A stretch of DNA of 64,000 bases, from the NCBI RefSeq assembly GCF_030269645.1, contig NZ_BSTR01000045.1, forward strand, positions 1 through 64,000, given 5' to 3'. Positions 10,280 through 58,791 of this stretch are shown one piece after another (positions within the stretch are counted from its first letter, which is position 1; the number at the start of each line of letters is the position of its first letter). The notes beneath the pieces were generated by a model. That model was not told where the DNA came from. It saw nothing but the letters and a program-made list of their open reading frames with translations, and did no database searches. The position numbers and the translations under genes were made by a program. Source of the DNA: Actinokineospora sp. NBRC 105648. Its GTDB lineage: Bacteria > Actinomycetota > Actinomycetes > Mycobacteriales > Pseudonocardiaceae.

Positions 10280-11527
10280 GTGCCCCGTAGCGTCTTGATC
10301 TCCGGTGCCGGCATCGCCGGGCCCGCGCTGGCCTTCTGGCTCAACCGGTACGGCATGACCCCGACCGTGGTCGAACGCGCCACCGGGCCGCGTCCGGGTG
10401 GGCAGACGGTCGACCTGCGCGGCGCGGGCCGCACCGTCATCGAGCGCATGGGCCTGGAGCAGGCCGCGCGTGAGCGTGTCACCCACGAAGCGGGCCTGCA
10501 CTTCGTCGACGGCCGCGACCGCGTCCGGGCCGCGTTCGGCAGCGACGCCCTCGGCGGCGACGGGTTCGTCACCGAGCTGGAACTGCTGCGCGGCGAACTC
10601 GCCGACCTGCTCCACCAGCGGACCCGCGACGACACCGAGTACGTCTTCGGTGACCAGATCACCGACCTGACCGAGACCGGCGACGGCGTGGACGTCACCT
10701 TCCGCGCCGGCCCCGACCGCCGGTTCGACCTCGTCGTCCTGGCCGACGGGTTCCGCTCCCGCACCCGCGACCTGGTCTTCGGCGACATCGCCCGCACCCG
10801 GTCCTTCGGTCTCTACACCGCTTACTTCACCATTGCCCGCACCGAGTCCGACGGCAGCTGGGCCCGCTGGTACAACGCCCCCGGCCGCCGCGTCGTCCTC
10901 CTCCGCCCGGACAACCAGGGCACCACCCGCGCGTCGCTGTCGTTCCTCACCATCCAAAAAGGACTGGACCGGCTGCCGGCCCCGGCCCAGAAGCGGTTCT
11001 TGCGGCACCACTACGCCGACGCGGGCTGGGAAACCCCGCGCGTACTGGACGGCATGGAAGCCGCCCCGGACTTCTACTTCGAATCTATCGGGCAGATGCA
11101 CCTCAAGCAGTGGTCACGCGGCCGGATCGCCGTCGTCGGAGACGCGGGCTACTGCGCGTCCCCGCTCAGCGGGATGGGCACCAGCCTCGCCCTCGTCGGC
11201 GCCTACGTCCTCGCGGGCGAACTCGATCGGCACGCCGGCCACCGGGATGCCTTCCGCGCCTACGAAACCACGATGCGGCCCTACGTCACCCAAGCCCAGA
11301 AGGTGTCCTGGTTCGCGCCCCGGCTGGCGTCGCCGAAAACCCGCACCGGTATCCGGATCCTCAACACCCTTGCCGGCCTCGCCGCCAACCCCAGAGCCAC
11401 TCGCCTTGTCACCCGGTTCACCAACCCCCCATCCGACGCCATCGACCTCCCCACCTACCCCACCACCGACCACAGTGGACACTCGGCAGCATCAGCCGCG
11501 AACGACAGGGACGAACCCACTGGTTGA
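10280..11527 (+). CDS. FAD-dependent aromatic monooxygenase
   Basis: A 415-residue group A flavoprotein monooxygenase (p-hydroxybenzoate hydroxylase fold, similar in layout to TetX-like drug-inactivating enzymes). The FAD dinucleotide motif SGAGIAGPALAFWL is at residues 5-18, and GGQTVDLRGAG is the flavin-contact loop. The second FAD motif GDAGYCASPLSGMGTSLAL is near residue 287. GTG 10280 follows GTGAGGAGG by 8 bp. It likely hydroxylates the compound exported by the preceding MFS pump. The last ~20 residues run into sequence resembling the island repeats, so the native C-terminus may be altered. Confidence 0.92.
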   Translation: MPRSVLISGAGIAGPALAFWLNRYGMTPTVVERATGPRPGGQTVDLRGAGRTVIERMGLEQAARERVTHEAGLHFVDGRDRVRAAFGSDALGGDGFVTELELLRGELADLLHQRTRDDTEYVFGDQITDLTETGDGVDVTFRAGPDRRFDLVVLADGFRSRTRDLVFGDIARTRSFGLYTAYFTIARTESDGSWARWYNAPGRRVVLLRPDNQGTTRASLSFLTIQKGLDRLPAPAQKRFLRHHYADAGWETPRVLDGMEAAPDFYFESIGQMHLKQWSRGRIAVVGDAGYCASPLSGMGTSLALVGAYVLAGELDRHAGHRDAFRAYETTMRPYVTQAQKVSWFAPRLASPKTRTGIRILNTLAGLAANPRATRLVTRFTNPPSDAIDLPTYPTTDHSGHSAASAANDRDEPTG

Positions 11528-38554: not shown

Positions 38555-39016
38555 ATGCACGATCTCAGCAGCGAGCAGCGCTCGGCATGCATCATCGTCG
38601 GCGTCGACGGCTCGGAATGCTCGAAAACAGCCCTGCGGTGGGCGATATCGCAGGCACGCCTGACCGGGGCGAGTGTCGAAGCCTTTGCCGCCTGGCAGGA
38701 CCCGGTAATGTATGGCTACGCCTACGGGTGGGCGCCAACCTCTTTCGCCGGAAGCGACAGCCTGCAGGCCATCACCGAAAAGACCCTCGCCGAAACAGTC
38801 GCCGGCGTCGCCGGGTCTGGGGGCCAGGCGGTGACAATCCGCACACGCGTCGTCCAGGGTCATCCCACCCAGGTCCTGATGGATGCCGCTACCGGGGCGC
38901 AAATGCTGGTCGTGGGCAGTCGCGGGCACGGCACCTTCGCCGGCATCCTGCTCGGTTCGGTCAGCCAGCACTGCGTGCAGCATGCGCCCTGTCCGGTGAC
39001 CGTCATCCCGCAGTAG
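38555..39016 (+). CDS. Universal stress protein (UspA family)
   Basis: A 153-residue single-domain Usp. The first strand carries IIVGVDGSECSKTALRWAIS. The C-terminal nucleotide motif is VVGSRGHGTFAGILLGSVSQ (G-2x-G-9x-GS), followed by the family end CPVTVIP, so ATP binding is expected. CAGGAGAG precedes the ATG. It is followed after 60 bp by a ribosome hibernation factor on the same strand, a common pairing in dormancy and stress responses. Confidence 0.93.
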   Translation: MHDLSSEQRSACIIVGVDGSECSKTALRWAISQARLTGASVEAFAAWQDPVMYGYAYGWAPTSFAGSDSLQAITEKTLAETVAGVAGSGGQAVTIRTRVVQGHPTQVLMDAATGAQMLVVGSRGHGTFAGILLGSVSQHCVQHAPCPVTVIPQ

Positions 39017-41598: not shown

Positions 41599-42147
41599 GT
41601 GCCTGAGCATCAGTTCGCCGCTGGCGACATTCCCGACGCCCGTGTCCCGGGCGCCGGCACAGGACTCACCGGGGATCTCCTGGCGGTCCTCACCGCTGCC
41701 CCCCGAACCGGGTGGCTCGTGCAAAGCCAGGTACATGATCCGCCTGTCCCGACGTCCGATCCGGCGCACACCCATCACGCCCAACCGAGCCAGATAGCAA
41801 CCGGCTCCCCGGTGGAGCGGTCGGGCCTGTCGGCGAGCTGGAGGCACGTGGGGGCCGCGGTGGTGGTGCGCGCCAGCGGCGAGGTTGATCTGGGCACCGC
41901 GCCGACGTTGGCTGCGGCGCTGCGGGCAGGCTGCCTGGCCGCACGCCCGCCGGGTCCGCTGGTGGTCGACCTGACCGGGATCCGATTCTTCTCCGCCGCA
42001 GGGCTGACCGCGCTGATCATCATCGACCTGCGCTGCCAACGCAGGCATCTCACCCTGAAGGTGGTGGCCACCCACCGCAGTGTGCTGATGCCGCTGCACA
42101 TCACTGGCCTGGACACTCAGCTCACCATCGTTCCCGATGCCGCATGA
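41599..42147 (+). CDS. STAS-domain protein (anti-sigma factor antagonist type)
   Basis: A 182-residue protein. The first ~75 residues are low-complexity and may not be translated. The STAS domain follows (AAVVVRASGEVDLGTAPTLA, then LVVDLTGIRFFSAAGLTALI), with the conserved serine of FSAAGL that anti-sigma kinases phosphorylate. GGAG lies 11 bp before GTG 41599; an internal start is possible. A second STAS gene follows 95 bp later. No kinase or phosphatase partner is present nearby. Confidence 0.75.
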   Translation: MPEHQFAAGDIPDARVPGAGTGLTGDLLAVLTAAPRTGWLVQSQVHDPPVPTSDPAHTHHAQPSQIATGSPVERSGLSASWRHVGAAVVVRASGEVDLGTAPTLAAALRAGCLAARPPGPLVVDLTGIRFFSAAGLTALIIIDLRCQRRHLTLKVVATHRSVLMPLHITGLDTQLTIVPDAA

Positions 42148-49572: not shown

Positions 49573-49830
49573 TCACCGCGGGCCGCCGACGAATCGTCCG
49601 ACGACGATGCTCGCCGGTACGGTGACGGCGCCGAGCAGAATGAATGCCAGGCTGCCCATCAGCGTGCCGAACACGACCAACGCGGCAGCGCAGAGAGCCA
49701 GAGCCACGACCCGGATCGGATGTGCCGAGTGTTCGGAGCCGCCATCGAACTGGTCGGCGATTCGGTCGAACTCTTGGCGCTCGTGAGCGCTGAGGACAAC
49801 GGGTCGCTCGTCATGGGGATGACTGGACAT
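49573..49830 (-). CDS. DUF3040-like small membrane protein
   Basis: An 85-residue protein opening with VVLSAHERQEFDRIADQF, the DUF3040 pattern. Two membrane segments follow (VVALALCAAALVVFGTLMGS and FILLGAVTVPASIVVGRFV). GGAGGT precedes ATG 49830. An 18-bp motif shared with the two response-regulator promoters lies 82 bp upstream in the same orientation, suggesting common control. Confidence 0.8.
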   Translation of the reverse strand: MSSHPHDERPVVLSAHERQEFDRIADQFDGGSEHSAHPIRVVALALCAAALVVFGTLMGSLAFILLGAVTVPASIVVGRFVGGPR

Positions 49831-49911: not shown

Positions 49912-49930
49912 CCGTCATCTGATCGCAAGG
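49912..49930 (-). promoter_or_regulatory. 18-bp shared motif, copy upstream of DUF3040 gene
   Basis: On the minus strand this reads CCTTGCGATCAGATGACGG and fits the consensus CYTTGCGATCWSRTGACG. It points toward the DUF3040 gene and ends 82 bp before its ATG. The three other good copies are at 51304, 51367 and 54044. Confidence 0.6.
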
Positions 49931-50147
49931 TACGCGGTCCGCGACGGGATCGGTGAACGGAGGACGATCTGTGCTCATCGGCCAAGCGGTGAGGCCGGCA
50001 ACGGACGCGGCGAGAGGCGGGTACCGGCGGGTGCTGTCATCACATCGTCAACGGATCGGAAGTGCGGTCGCAACCCAGGGCGCGAACACTGGATGGTGGT
50101 CCGTCGTCGATCGAGGGGAACCTGGCGTGATTAGACAGTCTGCCGCT

Positions 50148-50357
50148 ATGCGGGACACCCGCGCTCCCGCCGTCACCCGGATGGAACTGCACGACTGTGT
50201 GGGCGACGCGTTCCTGGTGGTCGATGTGGGTAAGGCCGACCTGCTCAACGCCGCGTTGCGGTGCGATGCCCGGCCTGCTGTCTTCGCCGCCATCAATCGG
50301 TTGCCGGAGCGGCTGTTCACCTCTACCGACGACGTGTGGGCTTGTCTCGTCGGGTGA
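50148..50357 (+). CDS. DUF2795-like small protein
   Basis: A 69-residue protein. The C-terminal pattern LLNAALRCDARPAVFAAINR, then LPERLFTSTDDVWACL, resembles DUF2795 small proteins (leucine-rich helix, then LPxRxYxSxxDVxxxL). No clear ribosome site precedes the ATG. An in-frame GTG or ATG further upstream would lengthen it by up to 65 codons of poorer quality. Confidence 0.5.
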   Translation: MRDTRAPAVTRMELHDCVGDAFLVVDVGKADLLNAALRCDARPAVFAAINRLPERLFTSTDDVWACLVG

Positions 50358-50508
50358 GTTGACTGCGGAGGACTCGCCACACCGCGTGGTCGGGCCGGTC
50401 CTCGTCGACTTCGAGCGAAGTCGTGCCGGGGGTGCCATCATCACTTGAGTTCAAAGGCCGCTCGGGTCCTTCGCCGCGGGTGGCGGGCGCGGTCTGAGGA
50501 GTGGCGTC

Positions 50509-50883
50509 GTGGGTGGTCCCGGGAGCGGTCGGAGCAGAGCCGAACGTGAGCGAGAACCGTTTTCGCAACGCGACCGTCGCGCTGTCGGTGGATCGTTGGG
50601 TGCCGCTTTGGACCATTACCTGGCTTTGGGCTATGAGGTCACCGCTACGGCCGATGGGTGGGCTTTGGTGCGGCGCGGGGTCTGCGAGGTGTTGCTCGTG
50701 GCCGAAGCGCCGCTGACGGGTTCCGGCGAGGTGGAATCGACGGCGAAGGCCCGGACCGCAACCGAGCCGGGGACGTCCACCGGTTCGGGTCCGGAATGGC
50801 CGATCACCGGGCGGGTACCCGAGGACGGGCGATGGCGAGTAGCCGACACGACGCGGCGGTGGGCGTCGTCGCCAGCACGGTAG
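50509..50883 (+). CDS. Hypothetical protein
   Basis: A 124-residue frame. The middle (AALDHYLALGYEVTATADGW, then ALVRRGVCEVLLVAEAPL) looks like a folded alpha/beta segment; both ends are low-complexity. Its last 80 bp overlap the convergent gene at 50804. The family is not recognised, and GTG 50509 is only one of several possible starts. Confidence 0.4.
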   Translation: MGGPGSGRSRAEREREPFSQRDRRAVGGSLGAALDHYLALGYEVTATADGWALVRRGVCEVLLVAEAPLTGSGEVESTAKARTATEPGTSTGSGPEWPITGRVPEDGRWRVADTTRRWASSPAR

Positions 50884-51301
50884 GGCGACGTTCGCCCTGT
50901 GGATCACGGATCGCGATCCACAGGGCCGGTGCTCGGGTGAGCACCCCGAGGTGCGATCGAGTACTCGCGGCGGGCAGCACGATTGCGAGGCCCGTCCGCA
51001 TCGGCGCCGATGCGGGGAGCACGGCCGCGAGAACCGGGCCGTGATCGGAGAGCACGACCCATTCCGCGCCTGCGGACAACGCGGCCGAGCGGCAGGTCAG
51101 CAGGCGCCTGCCGCCGGGCACGCGAAGCACGTCGCGCCGGTCGAGCACCAGTTCGATCGCCAGGTCGCCCGACCACGTCGTCACCGCGGTTATCGCGCGG
51201 GCCAGCAGCACCGTTGGCTCTCCGGTGCTGCCACTCGAACTCGCGGGCCAGCCGAACACGGACCGATTGTCGAGGCGGGGTGTTGAGGTGGGTCGACCCA
51301 T
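50804..51301 (-). CDS. Unknown protein, paralog of the 55001 gene
   Basis: A 165-residue soluble alpha/beta protein (LLARAITAVTTWSGDLAIEL, LTCRSAALSAGAEWVVLSDH, MRTGLAIVLPAASTRSHLGV). The last stretch aligns with LRIVLPAGPLRSELPLLAAG of the protein at 55001, and overall size and order agree, so they are probably paralogs. It is divergent from the OmpR/histidine-kinase genes. A shared 18-bp motif lies 3 bp before ATG 51301, so the true start may be further in, for example GTG 51259. Confidence 0.6.
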   Translation of the reverse strand: MGRPTSTPRLDNRSVFGWPASSSGSTGEPTVLLARAITAVTTWSGDLAIELVLDRRDVLRVPGGRRLLTCRSAALSAGAEWVVLSDHGPVLAAVLPASAPMRTGLAIVLPAASTRSHLGVLTRAPALWIAIRDPQGERRPTVLATTPTAASCRLLAIARPRVPAR

Positions 51302-51303
51302 CG

Positions 51304-51322
51304 CTTTGCGATCTCATGACGA
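51304..51322 (+). promoter_or_regulatory. 18-bp shared motif, distal copy upstream of response regulator
   Basis: CTTTGCGATCTCATGACGA fits the consensus CYTTGCGATCWSRTGACG. It lies 112 bp before the response-regulator start and 63 bp from a second copy. Confidence 0.65.
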
Positions 51323-51366
51323 ACACGGTGGGATACGACTTCTCGGCTCGCGGTATCAGCGGTCGC

Positions 51367-51385
51367 CCTTGCGATCTCGTGACGC
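51367..51385 (+). promoter_or_regulatory. 18-bp shared motif, proximal copy upstream of response regulator
   Basis: CCTTGCGATCTCGTGACGC lies in the same orientation as the distal copy, 49 bp before GTG 51434. Two direct copies at six helical turns are compatible with cooperative binding of an OmpR-type regulator. Confidence 0.65.
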
Positions 51386-51433
51386 GTGGTCCGCCAGTGC
51401 GCGGCGCCTGCCTCGCTTTGACAGCATGGTGGG

Positions 51434-52141
51434 GTGAGCCTGAACGTACTGATCGTGGAGGACGACGACCGGATCCGGGCGTCGCTGCGGCTGGCCTTGG
51501 AGGACGAGGGTTACGGCGTCGAGGAGGCGGCCAGTGCCGAGGCGGCACTGGCCCGGATCGGGAGCCACGGCACACCCGACATGATGATCGTCGATCTCAT
51601 GCTCGGTGGGATGGACGGGTTCAGCTGCATCCGCGGCGTCCGGCAGAGCAGTGACGTGCCGATCGTCGTGGTCAGCGCGCGGGCGGACACCCACGATGTG
51701 GTCGCCGCCCTTGAGGCGGGCGCCGACGACTACGTGACCAAGCCGTTCGAGATCAAGGAGATCACCGCCCGGCTGCGCGCGCTGCGCAGACGCGCCGCGG
51801 TGACCAGCCAGGCGTCGGCGCCGGCCGAGCTTGTCCTGGAGTCCGATGGGGAGGATCCCCTCGTGCTCTCGGTCGACGCGGGCACGGTGCGGCGCGGTGA
51901 CCATCCGGTGCACCTGACGCTCACCGAGTTCCGACTGCTGTGCGAGCTCGCGGGAGAGCCCGGACGGGTCTTGAGCCGCACCGCGCTGCTGGCGAGGGTG
52001 TGGGACCGGGGCTTCTTCGGCGACGAGCGCATCGTCGATGTGCACGTGCGCAGGCTGCGCACCAAGATCGAGCGGGACCCGGCGGCGCCCTCGGTCGTGG
52101 TGACCGTGCGGGGCCTCGGGTACCGCCTCGATGTCCACTGA
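51434..52141 (+). CDS. OmpR-family response regulator
   Basis: A 235-residue two-domain regulator. The receiver has the acidic pocket VEDDDR, phospho-acceptor Asp in MMIVDLMLGGMDGF (near residue 54), the SAR switch and KPFE lysine (near 103). The C-terminal winged helix shows LTLTEFRLLCELAGEPGRVL, IVDVHVRRLRTKIE and the typical end VRGLGYRLD. Its last 11 bp overlap the histidine-kinase start, so the pair is translationally coupled. Two copies of an 18-bp motif lie in its promoter region, suggesting autoregulation. Confidence 0.95.
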   Translation: MSLNVLIVEDDDRIRASLRLALEDEGYGVEEAASAEAALARIGSHGTPDMMIVDLMLGGMDGFSCIRGVRQSSDVPIVVVSARADTHDVVAALEAGADDYVTKPFEIKEITARLRALRRRAAVTSQASAPAELVLESDGEDPLVLSVDAGTVRRGDHPVHLTLTEFRLLCELAGEPGRVLSRTALLARVWDRGFFGDERIVDVHVRRLRTKIERDPAAPSVVVTVRGLGYRLDVH

Positions 52142-53504
52142 CGAGGTGCGCCCGCGCAGGCTGGGCTTGCGCGGGCGGGTGATGCTGACCTTCGCCGTCG
52201 GCGCGGCCCTGGTCTCGCTGCTGTTGGCCGTCTCGGTGTTCACGATCAGTCGCGGATACCTGACCGACCAGCGCGAGCGGTCTGCCCAGCGGTTGGCGGC
52301 GGGTGACGCCGACTTCGTCACCCGCAGGCTCACCGCACCCGGTGGCACGCCGAAGGCCGCGGTGGCCGCGCTCGACCCGCCGGCCGGAACGAAGATCCTG
52401 TTGCAGTGGTCGGGGGAGTGGGTCTCCGCCGACGACACAGCACCCCCCGACCTGCCACCCGACGTCCTCCGCGCCGAGGTGACCGGTGGATCGACCGGGA
52501 TCGTGCCCTTCACCGTCCGGGACTCGCCCTACCTGGTCACGGGGATCCCGCTGCCGGATGGCGGCGCGTTCTACGAGTACGCCCCGGTCGTCGAGCTGCG
52601 GTCGACCATCCGCATCCTCGGGGTGATCCTGGCGGCCTGCGCCGCGGCGGCGACCATCAGCGCCGCGCTGCTGGGCCTGTGGGCGAGCAGGCGGGTGCTG
52701 CGCCCGCTCGACACCCTGGCCCGCACGGCGGCGAGCATCGCGGGCGGCAACCTGGGGTCCCGGCTTCCCCAGGAGGGGGACCGCGACCTGAGCACGATTG
52801 TGTCGTCGTTCAACACGATGGTCGATTTCCTCCAACAGCGCATCGACCGGGAACAGCGCTTCGTCGGCGATGTCACCCACGAGTTGCGCACCCCGCTGAC
52901 CACTCTGGTCACCAGTGTGGAGGTCATGCGCAAACACGGCGCCGAGCTGCCCGACCGCCCGCGTCGCGCACTGGAGCTGGTGCACACCGAACTCGACCAC
53001 CTGCGCCGCATGCTCGACGACCTGCTGGCCCTGGCCAGGACCGAGGCGGGTCTGCACCACGACGAGGTGGAACCGCTGTCCCTGGTCGAGTTGCTCGGCC
53101 ACGTGCTCGCGAGCAAGGGCTACGCCTCGGCCGTGTTGGACGCGACAGGCGACGGGGTCGTGCCGGGTCGCAAGTTGGCGCTCGTACGGGCCTTCACCAA
53201 CCTGGTCGACAACGCGGAACGACATGCGGGCGGCGTGGTCCGGGTGGTGGTGAGAACGACTGAGGAGCGCGTCCTGGTCCACGTCGATGATGACGGGCCC
53301 GGGGTGCCAGAAGGAGAGCGCGACCGCGTCTTCGAACGGTTCGCCACCGGCCGCGGCGGTCGTGGCTCGACAGCGGGTACCGGGCTGGGCCTGGCCCTGG
53401 TCGCCGAGACCGTGGCGGTGCACGGCGGAACAGTGGTCTGCACGGACGCGCCCGACGGCGCCGCTCGATTCACCGTGGCCCTTCCCCGAGCGCCGCATGA
53501 CTGA
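52131..53504 (+). CDS. HAMP-containing sensor histidine kinase
   Basis: A 457-residue membrane kinase. TM1 is about residues 17-40 (VMLTFAVGAALVSLLLAVSV). An extracytoplasmic sensor of ~115 residues contains PPDLPPDVL and VPFTVRDSPYLVTGIPLP. TM2 is about 160-183, followed by HAMP (RRVLRPLDTLARTAASIAGG). The HisKA H-box is FVGDVTHELRTPLTTL (His near 249). The N-box is NLVDNAERH. The G-boxes are DDDGPGVPEG and TGLGLALV. It phosphorylates the regulator encoded just upstream. The signal is unknown. Confidence 0.95.
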   Translation: MSTDEVRPRRLGLRGRVMLTFAVGAALVSLLLAVSVFTISRGYLTDQRERSAQRLAAGDADFVTRRLTAPGGTPKAAVAALDPPAGTKILLQWSGEWVSADDTAPPDLPPDVLRAEVTGGSTGIVPFTVRDSPYLVTGIPLPDGGAFYEYAPVVELRSTIRILGVILAACAAAATISAALLGLWASRRVLRPLDTLARTAASIAGGNLGSRLPQEGDRDLSTIVSSFNTMVDFLQQRIDREQRFVGDVTHELRTPLTTLVTSVEVMRKHGAELPDRPRRALELVHTELDHLRRMLDDLLALARTEAGLHHDEVEPLSLVELLGHVLASKGYASAVLDATGDGVVPGRKLALVRAFTNLVDNAERHAGGVVRVVVRTTEERVLVHVDDDGPGVPEGERDRVFERFATGRGGRGSTAGTGLGLALVAETVAVHGGTVVCTDAPDGAARFTVALPRAPHD

Positions 53505-53521
53505 CCGACGACACGACGGTC

Positions 53522-53977
53522 CTATCCGATGCGGAACTCGGCCTGCGAGAGCGTGAGCGACGCACTCACCGCGGCGGCGACCATGACAAACGCGCTGACG
53601 ATCACGTCGGTCGCGGTGTCCGCCGGGTCCGAGGTCACCGCGGCGTCCTCGAGCACGAGCGGACCGACAGCGAGCCACGCGCCGAGCAGCACATTCACAC
53701 CACTGACGACCACGAACCGGCGAGGGGCCAAGACCCGTGCCGACGCCAAGACCACCAGGGCCGCCCCGACGAGCACCTCTTCGCGCCGCGCCGCTGTCGG
53801 GGCCGCGGGGACGTCCTGGCCGCCTGCCGCCAGCAGCCACCACCCCGCACCGAACACCACCGCGCTGGCCAACCGGATGCCAACGCTCGACCGGACCCGT
53901 CCGGGGCGACCACGCCCGGAGACGAGCAGTTCGGCCGCCAGCGAGCCCCGCTCCATGTCTGAGCGCTGTGTCCGCAT
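53522..53977 (-). CDS. SPW-like small membrane protein
   Basis: A 151-residue protein with four predicted membrane segments (IRLASAVVFGAGWWLLAAGG, VLVGAALVVLASARVLAPR, VVVSGVNVLLGAWLAVGPLV, TDVIVSAFVMVAAAVSASLT). The GAWLAVGPLVL segment recalls the SPW repeat, a small two-helix membrane motif of unknown role. It is divergent from the CheY-like regulator with an 18-bp motif between them, and convergent with the kinase gene. Confidence 0.7.
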   Translation of the reverse strand: MRTQRSDMERGSLAAELLVSGRGRPGRVRSSVGIRLASAVVFGAGWWLLAAGGQDVPAAPTAARREEVLVGAALVVLASARVLAPRRFVVVSGVNVLLGAWLAVGPLVLEDAAVTSDPADTATDVIVSAFVMVAAAVSASLTLSQAEFRIG

Positions 53978-54043
53978 GCGTCCTCCACGTCCTGTCTATC
54001 CCCGTGTCGGGGGAACTCCACCAGCCGACACCGGCCCGCGCCG

Positions 54044-54062
54044 CTTTGCGATCACGTGACGA
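54044..54062 (+). promoter_or_regulatory. 18-bp shared motif between SPW-like and CheY-like genes
   Basis: CTTTGCGATCACGTGACGA differs from the copy at 51304 at only two positions. It lies 71 bp before the CheY-like gene and 67 bp before the divergent SPW-like gene, so it could serve both. Confidence 0.65.
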
Positions 54063-54132: not shown

Positions 54133-54603
54133 ATGCATGACGTCCGGCAGTTGAAAGTCATCGACATCCTGCTCGTCGAGGATGACGAGGGCGACCTGGT
54201 GATCGTCCAAGAGGCGTTCACGCACTACAAGATCCGCAACGCCCTGCACGTCACCCGGGACGGCCGGCAGGCGTTGCGGTTCCTGCGCCGCGAACCGCCC
54301 TACGCTGCGGCAGCACGCCCCGACCTGGTCCTGCTCGACGTGAACCTGCCCGGTGTCGACGGCAGGCAGGTCCTCGCCGAGATCAGGGCCGACCCCGAAC
54401 TCCGCACGATTCCGGTGGTCGTGCTGACCGGTTCGGAGTCCGAGGCGGACATCGCGCGCGGCCACGGGACCGCCGACGCTTATGTCACCAAGCCGGTCGA
54501 CTTCGAACGACTCCTCGACATCGTCCGCGCGATCGACGGCTTCTTCGTGGCCGTGACAAGTTCCCCGCCGCGACAGCCGGTCAGTAGTGTTCACAGTGGC
54601 TAG
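54133..54603 (+). CDS. CheY-like single-domain response regulator
   Basis: A 156-residue receiver of the Rcp1 type. It has the acidic pocket LLVEDDEGDLVIVQEAFTHY, the phospho-acceptor in LVLLDVNLPGVDGRQVL (Asp near residue 70), and VVVLTGSESEADIARGHGTA with the switch threonine and the lysine of YVTKPVDF. The insertion and no-output layout match regulators that partner with phytochrome-like or hybrid kinases, though no such kinase is nearby. It probably works with the kinase at 52131 or an unlinked one. It shares an 18-bp motif with that operon. Confidence 0.92.
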   Translation: MHDVRQLKVIDILLVEDDEGDLVIVQEAFTHYKIRNALHVTRDGRQALRFLRREPPYAAAARPDLVLLDVNLPGVDGRQVLAEIRADPELRTIPVVVLTGSESEADIARGHGTADAYVTKPVDFERLLDIVRAIDGFFVAVTSSPPRQPVSSVHSG

Positions 54604-55004
54604 TCCTCGACCATCGGGTCGGTAGCGTGCAGGTGGCCCAACAGGCTCAACCCGGCGATGAGCACGCCCGCGAGCACATCGGCCCCGGTGGCCAGGGTGG
54701 AGTCCGCGCCGAAGCCGTAGTCGATCATCAGCGGTGCCGAGAGCGACCAGCACCCGATCGCCGCCCCACACACCGTCGCGGTGCGCAGGGTCATCCGGCG
54801 AAGTGCCCTGAACAGGCCCAGCGCGCAGGCCGCCAGTCCCACGAGGCGATCGTTCCACGGGGCGTCGAACCCGGTGAGGGCTCCGTAGTCGGCGCGGAGG
54901 GACTGCACGAGCAGCCAGCAGCCCACCGCGAGCACCACGCCGCTGACCAGGCCGGGCAGTTGCGGTCCGGGCACCCGGCTCCCGACAGTCACCGGGGCCG
55001 TCAT
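54600..55004 (-). CDS. SPW-like small membrane protein, second copy
   Basis: A 134-residue protein with four predicted membrane segments ([74 protein letters not shown]). The AAIGCWSLSAPLM segment is like the SPW motif of the 53522 protein. Its ATG overlaps the stop of the upstream gene by ATGA, so the two are translationally coupled. Confidence 0.7.
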   Translation of the reverse strand: MTAPVTVGSRVPGPQLPGLVSGVVLAVGCWLLVQSLRADYGALTGFDAPWNDRLVGLAACALGLFRALRRMTLRTATVCGAAIGCWSLSAPLMIDYGFGADSTLATGADVLAGVLIAGLSLLGHLHATDPMVED

Positions 55005-55474
55005 GACGCCCGTTCCAGGGCCAGCGCGGCGACCTCGGCGGCGGGCCGGCTCCGGACCAGCACCATCGAGCGCAGAGCGAGTTGGGCGTCCACGCCGTTG
55101 CCCAGCTCACGGGCGCGATTGACAGTGGTGAGCCCGACCGTCGGCCCCGCGGCGAGCAGCGGCAACTCAGATCGCAGGGGACCGGCAGGCAACACGATTC
55201 GCAGCGCCACGGGGACCGGGGCGGCCGCCTCGACGCGAAGTCCGAGCAGTGGGTCGTCGATGGTGATCACCGACCAGTGGCACACACCGTCGAGGAGGGT
55301 GACGGTGGAGTGCGCCTGCTTCAGGCAGGAAGCGACGGCGTTGCCTGCGATGTCGTCGTCGTCGACGGCGACCACGAAGACCGGCCACAGGTCTGCGTCG
55401 CCGCCGTGCCTGTTCTCCCGGGGCCACAGGAGCAGGGCCTCTCTGGCCAGGGCAGTGACTGTCGTGGCTAGCAT
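55001..55474 (-). CDS. Unknown protein, paralog of the 50804 gene
   Basis: A 157-residue soluble protein (LATTVTALAREALLLWPREN, ASCLKQAHSTVTLLDGVCHW, VALRIVLPAGPLRSELPLLA). No family was recognised. It resembles the 50804 protein in its IVLPA region and in size. It is the first gene of an operon with the SPW-like gene, divergent from the CPA1 antiporter 300 bp away. Confidence 0.6.
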   Translation of the reverse strand: MLATTVTALAREALLLWPRENRHGGDADLWPVFVVAVDDDDIAGNAVASCLKQAHSTVTLLDGVCHWSVITIDDPLLGLRVEAAAPVPVALRIVLPAGPLRSELPLLAAGPTVGLTTVNRARELGNGVDAQLALRSMVLVRSRPAAEVAALALERAS

Positions 55475-55518: not shown

Positions 55519-55537
55519 ACTTGTCGGTTGTGTGACG
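55519..55537 (+). promoter_or_regulatory. Weak candidate copy of the 18-bp motif
   Basis: CTTGTCGGTTGTGTGACGA matches the 54044 copy at 13 of 19 positions. It lies in the divergent gap between the 55001 operon and the antiporter gene, where a fifth site would be expected. The match is too weak to rely on alone. Confidence 0.25.
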
Positions 55538-55772: not shown

Positions 55773-56993
55773 ATGATGCTCGTTCTGGCGTTCGGGGTCG
55801 TGATGCTGATCAGTGTCTCGCTCTCCGGGGTCGCCGCCCGCACGGTCCTCTCGACGGCGTTGCTGTTCCTGCTCGCCGGTGCCCTCCTCGGTCGGGGCGG
55901 GCTCGGTGTGATCGACATCCAGCCGGATACCCCGATGGTCACCGTCCTGGCCGATATCGCGCTGTTCACCGTGCTGTTCACCGACGGGCAGCGGGCCAAC
56001 CTGCCCGCGCTGCGGGAAGGCTGGCGGCTCTCGGGCCGCGCGCTGGGCCTGGGGATGCCGTTGACGATGATCGGTGTCGCGGTCCCGGCGTATTTCCTGG
56101 TCGGGCTCGACTGGCCGACCGCGCTGCTGTTGGGCGCCATCCTGGCCCCGACCGACCCGGTGTTCGCCGCGGCGATCGTCGGCCGTGACGACGTGCCGCT
56201 GCGGTTGCGCAGGCTGCTCAACGTGGAGTCCGGGCTCAACGACGGGTTGGCGCTGCCGTTCGTGCTGATCTTCCTGGCCACCGCCGCGGACACCGAGTCG
56301 CACCTGGGCACGGTCGCGGTCGAACTGCTGCTCGGCCTGGTCCTGGGTGTCGCGGTGCCCGCGCTGGTGGCGCTGGCCTGGCGTCTGCGGGTGCTCACCG
56401 CCGAACCGCGCCTGCAGGCGCTGGGTCCGCTGGCGATCGGGGTGATGCTCTACGCGGCCTGCCACCTCACCCACGCCAACCCGTACCTGGCCGCGTTCGC
56501 CGCCGGGTCGACGCTGGCCACCCTGGACCGGGTCGCGGCCGAGCACTTCGAGCCCTTGGGCGACCTGCTCTCCGAGACCACGAAGTTCGCCGCGCTGCTC
56601 GTCTTCGGCGCGCTGATCACCCCGGAGCGGCTCTCCCACCTGTCGTTGGGCGGGTGGGCCGTCGCGGTGCTGGCCATCGTGGTCGTGCGCCCGGCGTCCA
56701 TGCTGCTCTCGCTCGTGCGCACCCGACTACCCCGACGGGAGCGGTACACCGCGGCCTGGTTCGGGCCCAAGGGATTCGCCTCGGTGGTCTACGGCTTGCT
56801 CGCGCTGCAGTCCGGCATCCCCGACAGCGAGGTCGTCTTCGACCTGGTCGCGGTGACGATCGCGCTGTCGATCGTGCTGCACTCCTCCACCGATGTCCCG
56901 GTCGCCCGCGCGCTGCGCGTGGAACCCCCCGACAACCTCCCGACCGGCAAGCACCACCGCGAGCCCGACGAGCAGCCCAGGAGTTCCGGATGA
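55773..56993 (+). CDS. CPA1-type cation/proton antiporter
   Basis: A 406-residue membrane protein with about 12 segments. Family hallmarks are GAILAPTDPVFAAAIVGRDD (the TDP motif of the unwound helix) and LLNVESGLNDGLALPFVLIF (the ion-binding Asp of GLNDG, near residue 160), plus WFGPKGFASVVYGLLAL. It exchanges Na+ or K+ for H+. ATG 55773 or 55776 begins at the first membrane helix; the ribosome site is weak. A CBS protein and an NhaD-type permease follow on the same strand, forming a cation-homeostasis unit. Confidence 0.92.
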   Translation: MMLVLAFGVVMLISVSLSGVAARTVLSTALLFLLAGALLGRGGLGVIDIQPDTPMVTVLADIALFTVLFTDGQRANLPALREGWRLSGRALGLGMPLTMIGVAVPAYFLVGLDWPTALLLGAILAPTDPVFAAAIVGRDDVPLRLRRLLNVESGLNDGLALPFVLIFLATAADTESHLGTVAVELLLGLVLGVAVPALVALAWRLRVLTAEPRLQALGPLAIGVMLYAACHLTHANPYLAAFAAGSTLATLDRVAAEHFEPLGDLLSETTKFAALLVFGALITPERLSHLSLGGWAVAVLAIVVVRPASMLLSLVRTRLPRRERYTAAWFGPKGFASVVYGLLALQSGIPDSEVVFDLVAVTIALSIVLHSSTDVPVARALRVEPPDNLPTGKHHREPDEQPRSSG

Positions 56994-57501: not shown

Positions 57502-58791
57502 ATGACCGCGGTCGCGGTGGTCGTGTTCGTGGTGGGCTACGTGCTCATCGCCACCGAGCGCGTCCCGAAGATGGTCGTCGCCCTGGCCGGGGCGGGGGTG
57601 CTGCTCGCGATCGGGGTCACCGATTCGCACGAGGCGTTCTACTCCAACGAGACCGGCGTCGACTGGGACGTCGTCTTCCTGCTGCTCGGCATGATGATCA
57701 TCGTCGGCGTCCTGCGCCGGACCGGCGTGTTCGAGTACATCGCCATCTGGTCGGCCAAGCGCGCCGGGGGTTCGCCGGTCCGGGTGATGGTTCTGCTGGT
57801 CCTGATCACCGCGGTGGCCTCGGCGTTCCTGGACAACGTCACCACCGTGCTGCTCATCGCCCCGGTGACCCTGCTGGTGTGTGAACGCCTCGACATCTCC
57901 CCGGTGCCGTTCCTCATCGCCGAGGTCTTCGCCTCGAACATCGGCGGCGCCGCCACTCTCATCGGCGACCCGCCCAACATCATCATCGGCAGCCGGGCGG
58001 GCCTGACGTTCAACGACTTCCTGGTGCACATGGCGCCGATCGCACTGATCGAACTCGTCGTGTTCACCCTGCTGCTCCCTCTGCTCTTCCGCGGTTCGTT
58101 CGCTGTCGACGCGGACCGGGTGGCCGAGGTCATGGCCCTCGACGAACGCGAGGCGATCCGCGACCGGACACTGCTGGTCAAGAGCGGCCTCGTGCTCGCG
58201 GGCGTGCTCATCGCCTTCGTCGCCCACCCGATCATCCACATCGAGCCCTCGATCGTGGCCCTGCTCGGTGCCGGGGTGCTGGTCCTGGTCTCCGGAACAC
58301 AGCCCAAGCACTACCTCGCGGGCGTGGAGTGGGAAACCCTGCTGTTCTTCGCCGGTCTGTTCGTCATGGTCGGCGCCCTGGTCAAGACCGGTGTCATCGG
58401 AACCCTCGCCGGCTGGGCCGCCGACGCCACCGGCGGCAACGCCCTGCTCGCGGTCATGCTCATCCTCGGGGTCTCGGCCCTGCTGTCCGGGATCATCGAC
58501 AACATCCCCTACGTGGCCACTATGAGCCCCATCGTCGCCCAACTCACCGAGCAGATCGCCGACCCGGTCCACTCCCAAGCCCTCTGGTGGTCCCTCGCCC
58601 TCGGCGCCGACTTCGGCGGCAACCTCACCGCGGTCGGAGCCAGCGCCAACGTCGTCGTCCTCGGAATCGCCAAACGCGCCGGACATCCGATCTCGTTCTG
58701 GGAGTTCACCCGCAAGGGCGCCGTGGTCACCCTGATCACCATTGTCGTCGCCGCGCCCTACCTGTGGCTGCGCTACTTCGTCCTCGCCTGA
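57502..58791 (+). CDS. NhaD/ArsB-type ion permease (SLC13-like superfamily)
   Basis: A 429-residue membrane protein with 11-12 segments in two inverted halves. Each half has the diagnostic loop: [20 protein letters not shown] with [20 protein letters not shown], then [20 protein letters not shown] with [20 protein letters not shown]. Members export arsenite or exchange Na+ and H+. Absence of ars genes and the link to a CPA1 antiporter favour Na+/H+ exchange. It is the third gene of the cation unit. Confidence 0.9.

Follow-up and report, generated by a model that had tools for sequence, protein, structure and literature searches.

A direct-repeat motif around a two-component system of Actinokineospora is very probably the operator of its OmpR-type regulator

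Which protein reads a short DNA motif that recurs four times around a single two-component system? To our knowledge, the operators and regulons of most two-component systems in non-model actinobacteria are unknown, and the question arises in compact form in positions 1 to 64,000 of contig NZ_BSTR01000045.1 from Actinokineospora sp. NBRC 105648 (the window, 64,000 nucleotides). Here, an 18-bp motif stands ahead of the genes for an OmpR/PhoB-family response regulator, a receiver-only CheY-like regulator, and a small membrane protein. An initial annotation, made from the sequence alone, took the motif for the binding site of the OmpR-type regulator and tied two response regulators, a kinase, small membrane proteins, and an unknown protein into one local regulon. 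We find that the site is very probably the operator of this regulator (gene 51434–52141), and we consider it highly probable that the regulator acts through it mainly as an activator of its own leaderless promoter and of neighbouring genes. The features on which this reading rests are the following (bits are matrix scores, explained below):

49913..49928 (18-mer 49913–49930), minus strand: putative operator copy 1, exact, 82 bp before the DUF3040-like gene, 26.4 bits
51306..51321 (18-mer 51304–51321), plus strand: putative operator copy 2, exact, 112 bp before the regulator gene and 63 bp upstream of copy 3, 31.0 bits
51369..51384 (18-mer 51367–51384), plus strand: putative operator copy 3, exact, 49 bp before the regulator gene, position kept in relatives, 24.7 bits
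51422..51427, plus strand: -10-like element CAGCAT, 37 nt downstream of copy 3; 6 nt separate it from GTG 51434
51434..52141, plus strand: OmpR/PhoB-family response regulator, the probable binder, with Response_reg and Trans_reg_C domains, under the CseB and MtrA cut-offs
52131..53504, plus strand: sensor histidine kinase with an outer domain, HAMP, HisKA, and HATPase
54046..54061 (18-mer 54044–54061), plus strand: putative operator copy 4, exact, 71 bp before the CheY-like gene, 29.3 bits
54089..54094, plus strand: -10-like element TAGGCT, 27 nt after copy 4

The 18-mer CYTTGCGATCWSRTGACG matches all four places without mismatch. All four copies had been reported, with spans one base too long; the reported 14 invariant columns among the 18 are confirmed, and the gene distances of 82, 112, 49, and 71 bp agree with the open reading frame starts. 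As had also been noted, copies 2 and 4 lie in divergent gaps, the former between the 50804–51301 gene and the regulator gene and the latter between the SPW-like and CheY-like genes. The motif is not scattered at random: its core TTGCGATCNNNTGACG matches perfectly at four places among the 8,428,408 bases (149 contigs) of the genome, all of them within the same 4.1 kb, and the backwards control of the core has none. With one mismatch allowed, the core gains two matches (one on contig C2, one at 50046–50061) and the control has two; by that count, both one-mismatch matches are no more than chance. At up to three mismatches, shuffled versions of the window average 0.97 matches, and 2 of 100 reach at least four, whereas the real copies are all exact. 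By simple placement, four sites would fall inside a single 4.15-kb stretch with a probability of about 1e-10.

The architecture of the motif is that of a direct repeat, TTGCG-N6-TGACG, whose half-sites start 11 bp apart, or about one helical turn. The core of the 18-bp unit in the initial annotation is better described as the direct repeat TTGCGATC-NNR-TGACG (also written TTGCGRTY-NNR-TGACG). Head-to-tail half-sites with an 11-bp period are what characterizes operators of the OmpR/PhoB type, and the regulator encoded here combines the receiver with the winged-helix Trans_reg_C domain of the corresponding binders. Noncoding DNA of 12 close loci, some of which had been fetched through the motif itself, contains 32 matches to T[TG][GA]CG-N6-T[TG][GA]CG, compared with 1–8 for other spacers; when spacers of 2–12 were compared, only a spacer of 6 was enriched. 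Column information falls below 1 bit on both flanks, except for the T immediately 5' of the motif. The spacing of 63 bp between copies 2 and 3 corresponds to 6.0 turns at 10.5 bp.

The repeat also stands ahead of the regulator in relatives. We fetched loci from named genomes solely by similarity to the sensor-HAMP part of the kinase, kept the best 80 of 147, and placed the regulator gene in 72 of them (in L180, L182, L192, L239, L246, L247, L248, and L250, no called regulator gene survived filtering). We searched the sense strand of each locus over an interval that began 300 bp before the called start and ended 60 bp within the gene. The 6-bp-spaced repeat is present there in 49 of the 72 loci; other spacers occur in 0–6 loci, and the opposite strand yields 1. 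Sites were found in 37 of 42 loci from Geodermatophilaceae, 3 of 4 from Actinokineospora, both of Kibdelosporangium type, 2 of 3 from Kribbella, 3 of 5 of Kineosporiales type and Motilibacter, 1 of 5 from metagenome bins, and 1 of 11 from Nocardia/Rhodococcus; some misses differ by one base (e.g., L202 and L234). A second, partly selected set, in which ten loci (L124–L133) had been picked for an exact site on the same contig or genome, gave 32 of 61 loci for the 6-bp repeat and 0–1 for other spacers. The kinase-fetched set is free of that selection, and several genomes occur in both. In most close orthologues, the motif lies 31–104 bp ahead of the start in gene sense. Conservation upstream of orthologues is thus specific in spacing and orientation, rests mostly on one family, and nearly vanishes in Nocardia/Rhodococcus. 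The titles of two loci look wrong: L184 is titled Rhodococcus rhodnii, yet its genome groups in genus g22 with a Kibdelosporangium genome, and L244 is titled Bacillus sp. (unverified), yet its system is of the Geodermatophilaceae type.

Motif and system occur together across genomes. In 390 Pseudonocardiaceae genomes, the kinase has 11 close relatives (counting itself; at least 59% identity) and a second tier at about 40%, and it has relatives beyond that family at 44–50% in Geodermatophilaceae (f16) and, once, at 55% in family f8. The exact core is found in 69 of the 390 genomes, with 90 matches against 14 for the backwards control. Among 56 Geodermatophilaceae genomes taken from a larger group, TTGCGRTYNNRTGACG is present in all 21 with a close kinase (E ≤1e-95) and in 4 of the 35 others; in one of these four, G483, the contig with the motif also encodes a second-tier kinase. 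Within Actinokineospora, all eight genomes with a close kinase have the motif, as do two of the eight without it. Fisher tests give 9e-12 for Geodermatophilaceae and 0.0035 for Actinokineospora, values that relatedness makes too small.

We sought the best TGGCAGCAT-like word freely over about 60 nt downstream of the motif in 54 distinct regulator promoters. The distance from the motif to this -10-like hexamer is 27 nt in 7, 36–39 nt in 37, 46–48 nt in 4, and 55 nt in 1 (the remaining 5 had no assignment). The distance steps by helical turns, a geometry that suggests an activator. In the window, the regulator message is probably leaderless, because CAGCAT lies only 6 nt before GTG 51434. At 7 of 25 examined sites of relatives, all seven in genus g7 (L021–L023, L025–L027, and L030), GGGTAG or GGGTAT occurs with its TA at 36–38 nt, which we take to resemble a stress-sigma -10.

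The segment GDERIVDVHVRRLRTK of the regulator, which presumably holds the expected recognition helix, is nearly constant in close relatives, Nocardia included; it resembles GDTRLLDVHVRRLRRK of the second-tier regulators, and the second tier has related sites. The 11-bp direct repeat, the co-occurrence with the system, and the near-constant helix segment together lend indirect support to the earlier proposal that the motif is the binding site of the local OmpR-type regulator.

Several observations weigh against this assignment. The two kinase-less Actinokineospora genomes with the motif hold one copy, in one case (G007) beside DUF2795-like genes. The relatives are not independent, with 37 of the 49 positive loci coming from Geodermatophilaceae. 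Ten of the 11 Nocardia/Rhodococcus loci (L183, L185–L189, L224, and L253–L255) keep the regulator and the helix segment without a site ahead of the regulator. The only site at the kinase-adjacent regulator of A. pegani is inverted, at a distance of 170 bp, and the second regulator copy of this species has a site at 62 bp; the regulator of G040 has no site upstream. In the scan of the window copies, finally, copies 1 and 2 had no -10-like element at phased distances.

Could the motif be something else, or work differently? OmpR-type regulators both activate and repress, so the same operator might serve mainly for repression. Only 4 bp lie between copy 2, at 51306, and the start codon (ATG) of the divergently transcribed 50804–51301 gene, a place fit for repressing that gene, and a passage of PMC3353115 describes Corynebacterium glutamicum MtrA as repressing when bound near the -10 and activating when bound upstream of the -35. 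In 37 of the 54 regulator promoters, however, about 37 nt separate the end of the site from the -10-like element downstream, as expected for an activator, and we regard a mainly repressing regulator as unlikely. It is less probable still that the site belongs to another OmpR-type regulator, such as MtrA or a paralogue, that controls the system from outside. The MtrA and AfsQ1 boxes are similar direct repeats, OmpR-type paralogues are numerous in the genome (the MtrA model has 74 matches there, counting receiver-only proteins), and the second-tier systems carry related sites in front of the regulators that they encode. Yet the presence of the motif tracks this kinase, relatives retain the site in front of this regulator, and the true MtrA of the genome (389.7 bits, cut-off 300) is present anyway, on contig C8, which has no perfect motif. 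The local regulator is neither MtrA nor CseB: it reaches 215.6 bits on the MtrA model NF040689 (cut-off 300) and 229.4 bits on its best NCBIfam model, CseB NF041733 (cut-off 350).

A core promoter element, that is, a sequence recognized by a sigma factor, would share the position of the motif 31–104 bp ahead of starts and in gene sense. It would not be built as a repeat with one helical turn between its halves, and its distance to the -10-like element would not step by about 10 nt (27, 36–39, 46–48). No sigma factor is known to tolerate such stepping, which a DNA-bound activator does tolerate; we rejected the sigma-factor element on this ground and hold it to be very improbable. A chance repeat or a dispersed element is hardly credible at all. 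The few shuffles that reach four matches do so with three mismatches allowed, whereas the genome has four exact copies in one 4.1-kb stretch of 8.43 Mb, orthologous placement, and flanks of less than 1 bit; the whole-genome count and the orthologous placement led us to discard it. An operator of the local regulator, used mainly for activation, thus remains the reading we prefer.

How far does the putative regulon extend in the window? A scoring matrix built from 55 sites ahead of the relatives' regulators, with the window excluded from training, ranks the four copies at the top (31.0, 29.3, 26.4, and 24.7 bits), followed by 55522–55537 (19.8 bits) and 50046–50061 (15.2 bits). The best scores in 20 simulated windows range from 9.6 to 15.4 bits; because these reach at most 15.4 bits, 55522–55537 stands above noise and 50046–50061 does not. 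The latter, within noise both by matrix score and by count, was rejected. The two additional places are:

55522..55537, plus strand: putative extra degenerate operator TGTCGGTTGTGTGACG, 47 bp ahead of the 55001–55474 gene, 19.8 bits
50035..50061, minus strand: weak candidate with three half-sites at 11-bp steps (TTCCG, TGACG, and TGACA), between the DUF3040-like and DUF2795-like genes, 15.2 and 11.3 bits, not above noise

The operator-like site at 55522–55537, absent from the initial annotation, lies ahead of the operon formed by the 55001–55474 gene and an SPW gene. The half-site TGTCG is also found ahead of regulators in loci L128 and L131, and the orientation of the site to the 55001–55474 gene is that of the regulator operator to the homologous divergent gene in L106–L109 (gaps 38–47 bp). 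Second sites occur elsewhere too. In the Modestobacter-type loci L158 and L160, another perfect site (11340–11355 and 2451–2466, respectively) precedes the gene for a 97-aa protein with a CPEC motif by 61 bp, and several genomes of the same genus carry two sites. Other sites lie ahead of genes for BCCT carriers (L036 and L043, confirmed by Pfam), a universal stress protein (L038), an F420-type quinone reductase (L052), and a PCuAC protein (L056). An osmotic regulon stays a hint only: the L040 site lies behind the 3' end of a BCCT gene, and there is no BCCT carrier among the site-adjoining proteins of the window.

The neighbouring genes are the following:

49573..49830, minus strand: small membrane protein, DUF3040-like (Pfam E 0.058, 14.1 bits, cut-off 24.7)
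50127..50357, plus strand: small DUF2795-like protein, start 50127 or 50148 (Pfam DUF2795 E 1.8e-4, below cut-off)
50804..51301, minus strand: 165-aa protein of a kinase-linked new family, divergent from the regulator
53522..53977, minus strand: SPW-like membrane protein, divergent from the CheY-like gene (Pfam SPW E 2.8e-7, 31.3 bits, cut-off 31.5)
54133..54603, plus strand: receiver-only CheY-like response regulator without a DNA-binding domain (Response_reg only)
54600..55004, minus strand: SPW protein overlapping the 55001–55474 gene, operon-like (Pfam SPW 36.4 bits, above cut-off)
55001..55474, minus strand: 157-aa protein, second member of the new family and paralogue of 50804–51301, structure modelled

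Among the earlier gene labels, the OmpR-type regulator, the HisKA/HATPase kinase, and the receiver-only CheY-like protein hold; SPW (53522–53977) falls just under its cut-off, and DUF3040 is weak. Our own gene caller shortened the DUF3040-like gene and missed 50804–51301, and for both we used the open reading frame list. The outer part of the kinase resembles the WalK model and, weakly, Cache sensors. By eye, the window is rich in stress genes between about 33 and 59 kb (universal-stress-like 38555–39016, STAS-like 41848–42147, antiporter-like 55773–56993, and transporter-like 57502–58791).

The "unknown protein" of the initial annotation (50804–51301) is still without a curated family, but it does belong to a family, since the 55001–55474 protein is its paralogue (28% identity). 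A profile of this family of about 160 aa has 18 matches in 13 of the 390 Pseudonocardiaceae genomes, namely G039, G044, and every one of the 11 that has a close kinase. Seventeen matches have a close or second-tier kinase no more than 2 kb away (second-tier in G039, G040, and G044), and the eighteenth (A. pegani, G016 C107) adjoins the second regulator copy; within these genomes, the family is found only with such systems and nearly always next to such a kinase. It has neither a curated family nor a solved fold: the 157-aa member has no Pfam family, and its confident model (predicted local distance difference test score 87.8) found no fold match in the PDB (best E 0.14). Pfam gave one weak EccE match (E 0.0044) and one Asparaginase match (0.097) among nine members. 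A STAS-like nature was rejected: Pfam shows no STAS domain in the family, and the fold comparison with the PDB gave no match. A STAS protein of the anti-sigma-antagonist type is encoded by the gene divergent from the regulator in the three loci tested from other lineages, Modestobacter, Kribbella, and Kineococcus (L158, L197, and L209). The swap of partners at one divergent promoter, new family versus STAS, suggests that a conserved sensor has been connected to different outputs, and the new family, being so closely linked to these kinases, is likely a dedicated partner.

We propose that two DNA-binding domains of the regulator would sit head to tail on the half-sites TTGCG and TGACG, 11 bp apart. 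Phosphorylated by the kinase (52131–53504), perhaps in response to stress or to the state of the envelope, the regulator would most likely activate its own leaderless promoter. Through the other copies, it would activate the two members of the new family, the SPW membrane proteins, and the receiver-only CheY-like protein, and the small DUF3040-like and DUF2795-like proteins are probably targets as well. The DUF3040-like and SPW genes are the targets of which we are least sure, because the copies at 49913 and 51306 lack a phased -10-like element. With this reservation, and with the site at 55522–55537 added, the local regulon first proposed is supported; in this genome, it appears small and local. 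An operator, a probable regulator, and a short target list follow from the sequence and hold in several families.

How does this unit compare with known systems? Like MtrAB, it pairs an OmpR-family regulator with a direct repeat of 11-bp period and predicted activator sites upstream of the -35. The C. glutamicum MtrA box consists of 8-bp repeats with a 3-bp linker (as given in part of PMC3353115), and MtrA of Streptomyces venezuelae binds its own promoter (in a portion of PMC13189361). The half-sites differ, being TTGCG/TGACG here and (A/G)TAACAAT and GTnAC-type halves for MtrA. The AfsQ1 box of Streptomyces coelicolor, GTnAC-n6-GTnAC (in an excerpt of PMC6988585), likewise has two 5-bp halves and a 6-bp spacer, and the second half here, RTGACG, contains GTGAC if R is G; the first half, TTGCG, does not fit GTnAC. 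Unlike CseBC, the operon here is regulator-kinase, with no sigma factor of the sigE type among the ten locus proteins scanned, whereas in S. coelicolor the sigE promoter seems to be the sole CseB target (according to a section of PMC6767563). Among the listed literature matches to the string TTGCGATC, none is on actinobacterial regulation by its title, and TGCGATC combined with response regulator and actinobacteria gave no match; by these searches, the operator is undescribed. A wider reading, whose chances we judge to be evenly balanced, is that the system is an undescribed self-amplifying actinobacterial stress-signalling unit that stands alongside MtrAB and AfsQ and has an operator of its own, with lineage-specific partners at a shared divergent promoter, of which the Pseudonocardiaceae partner is possibly a feedback modulator of the kinase or the receivers.

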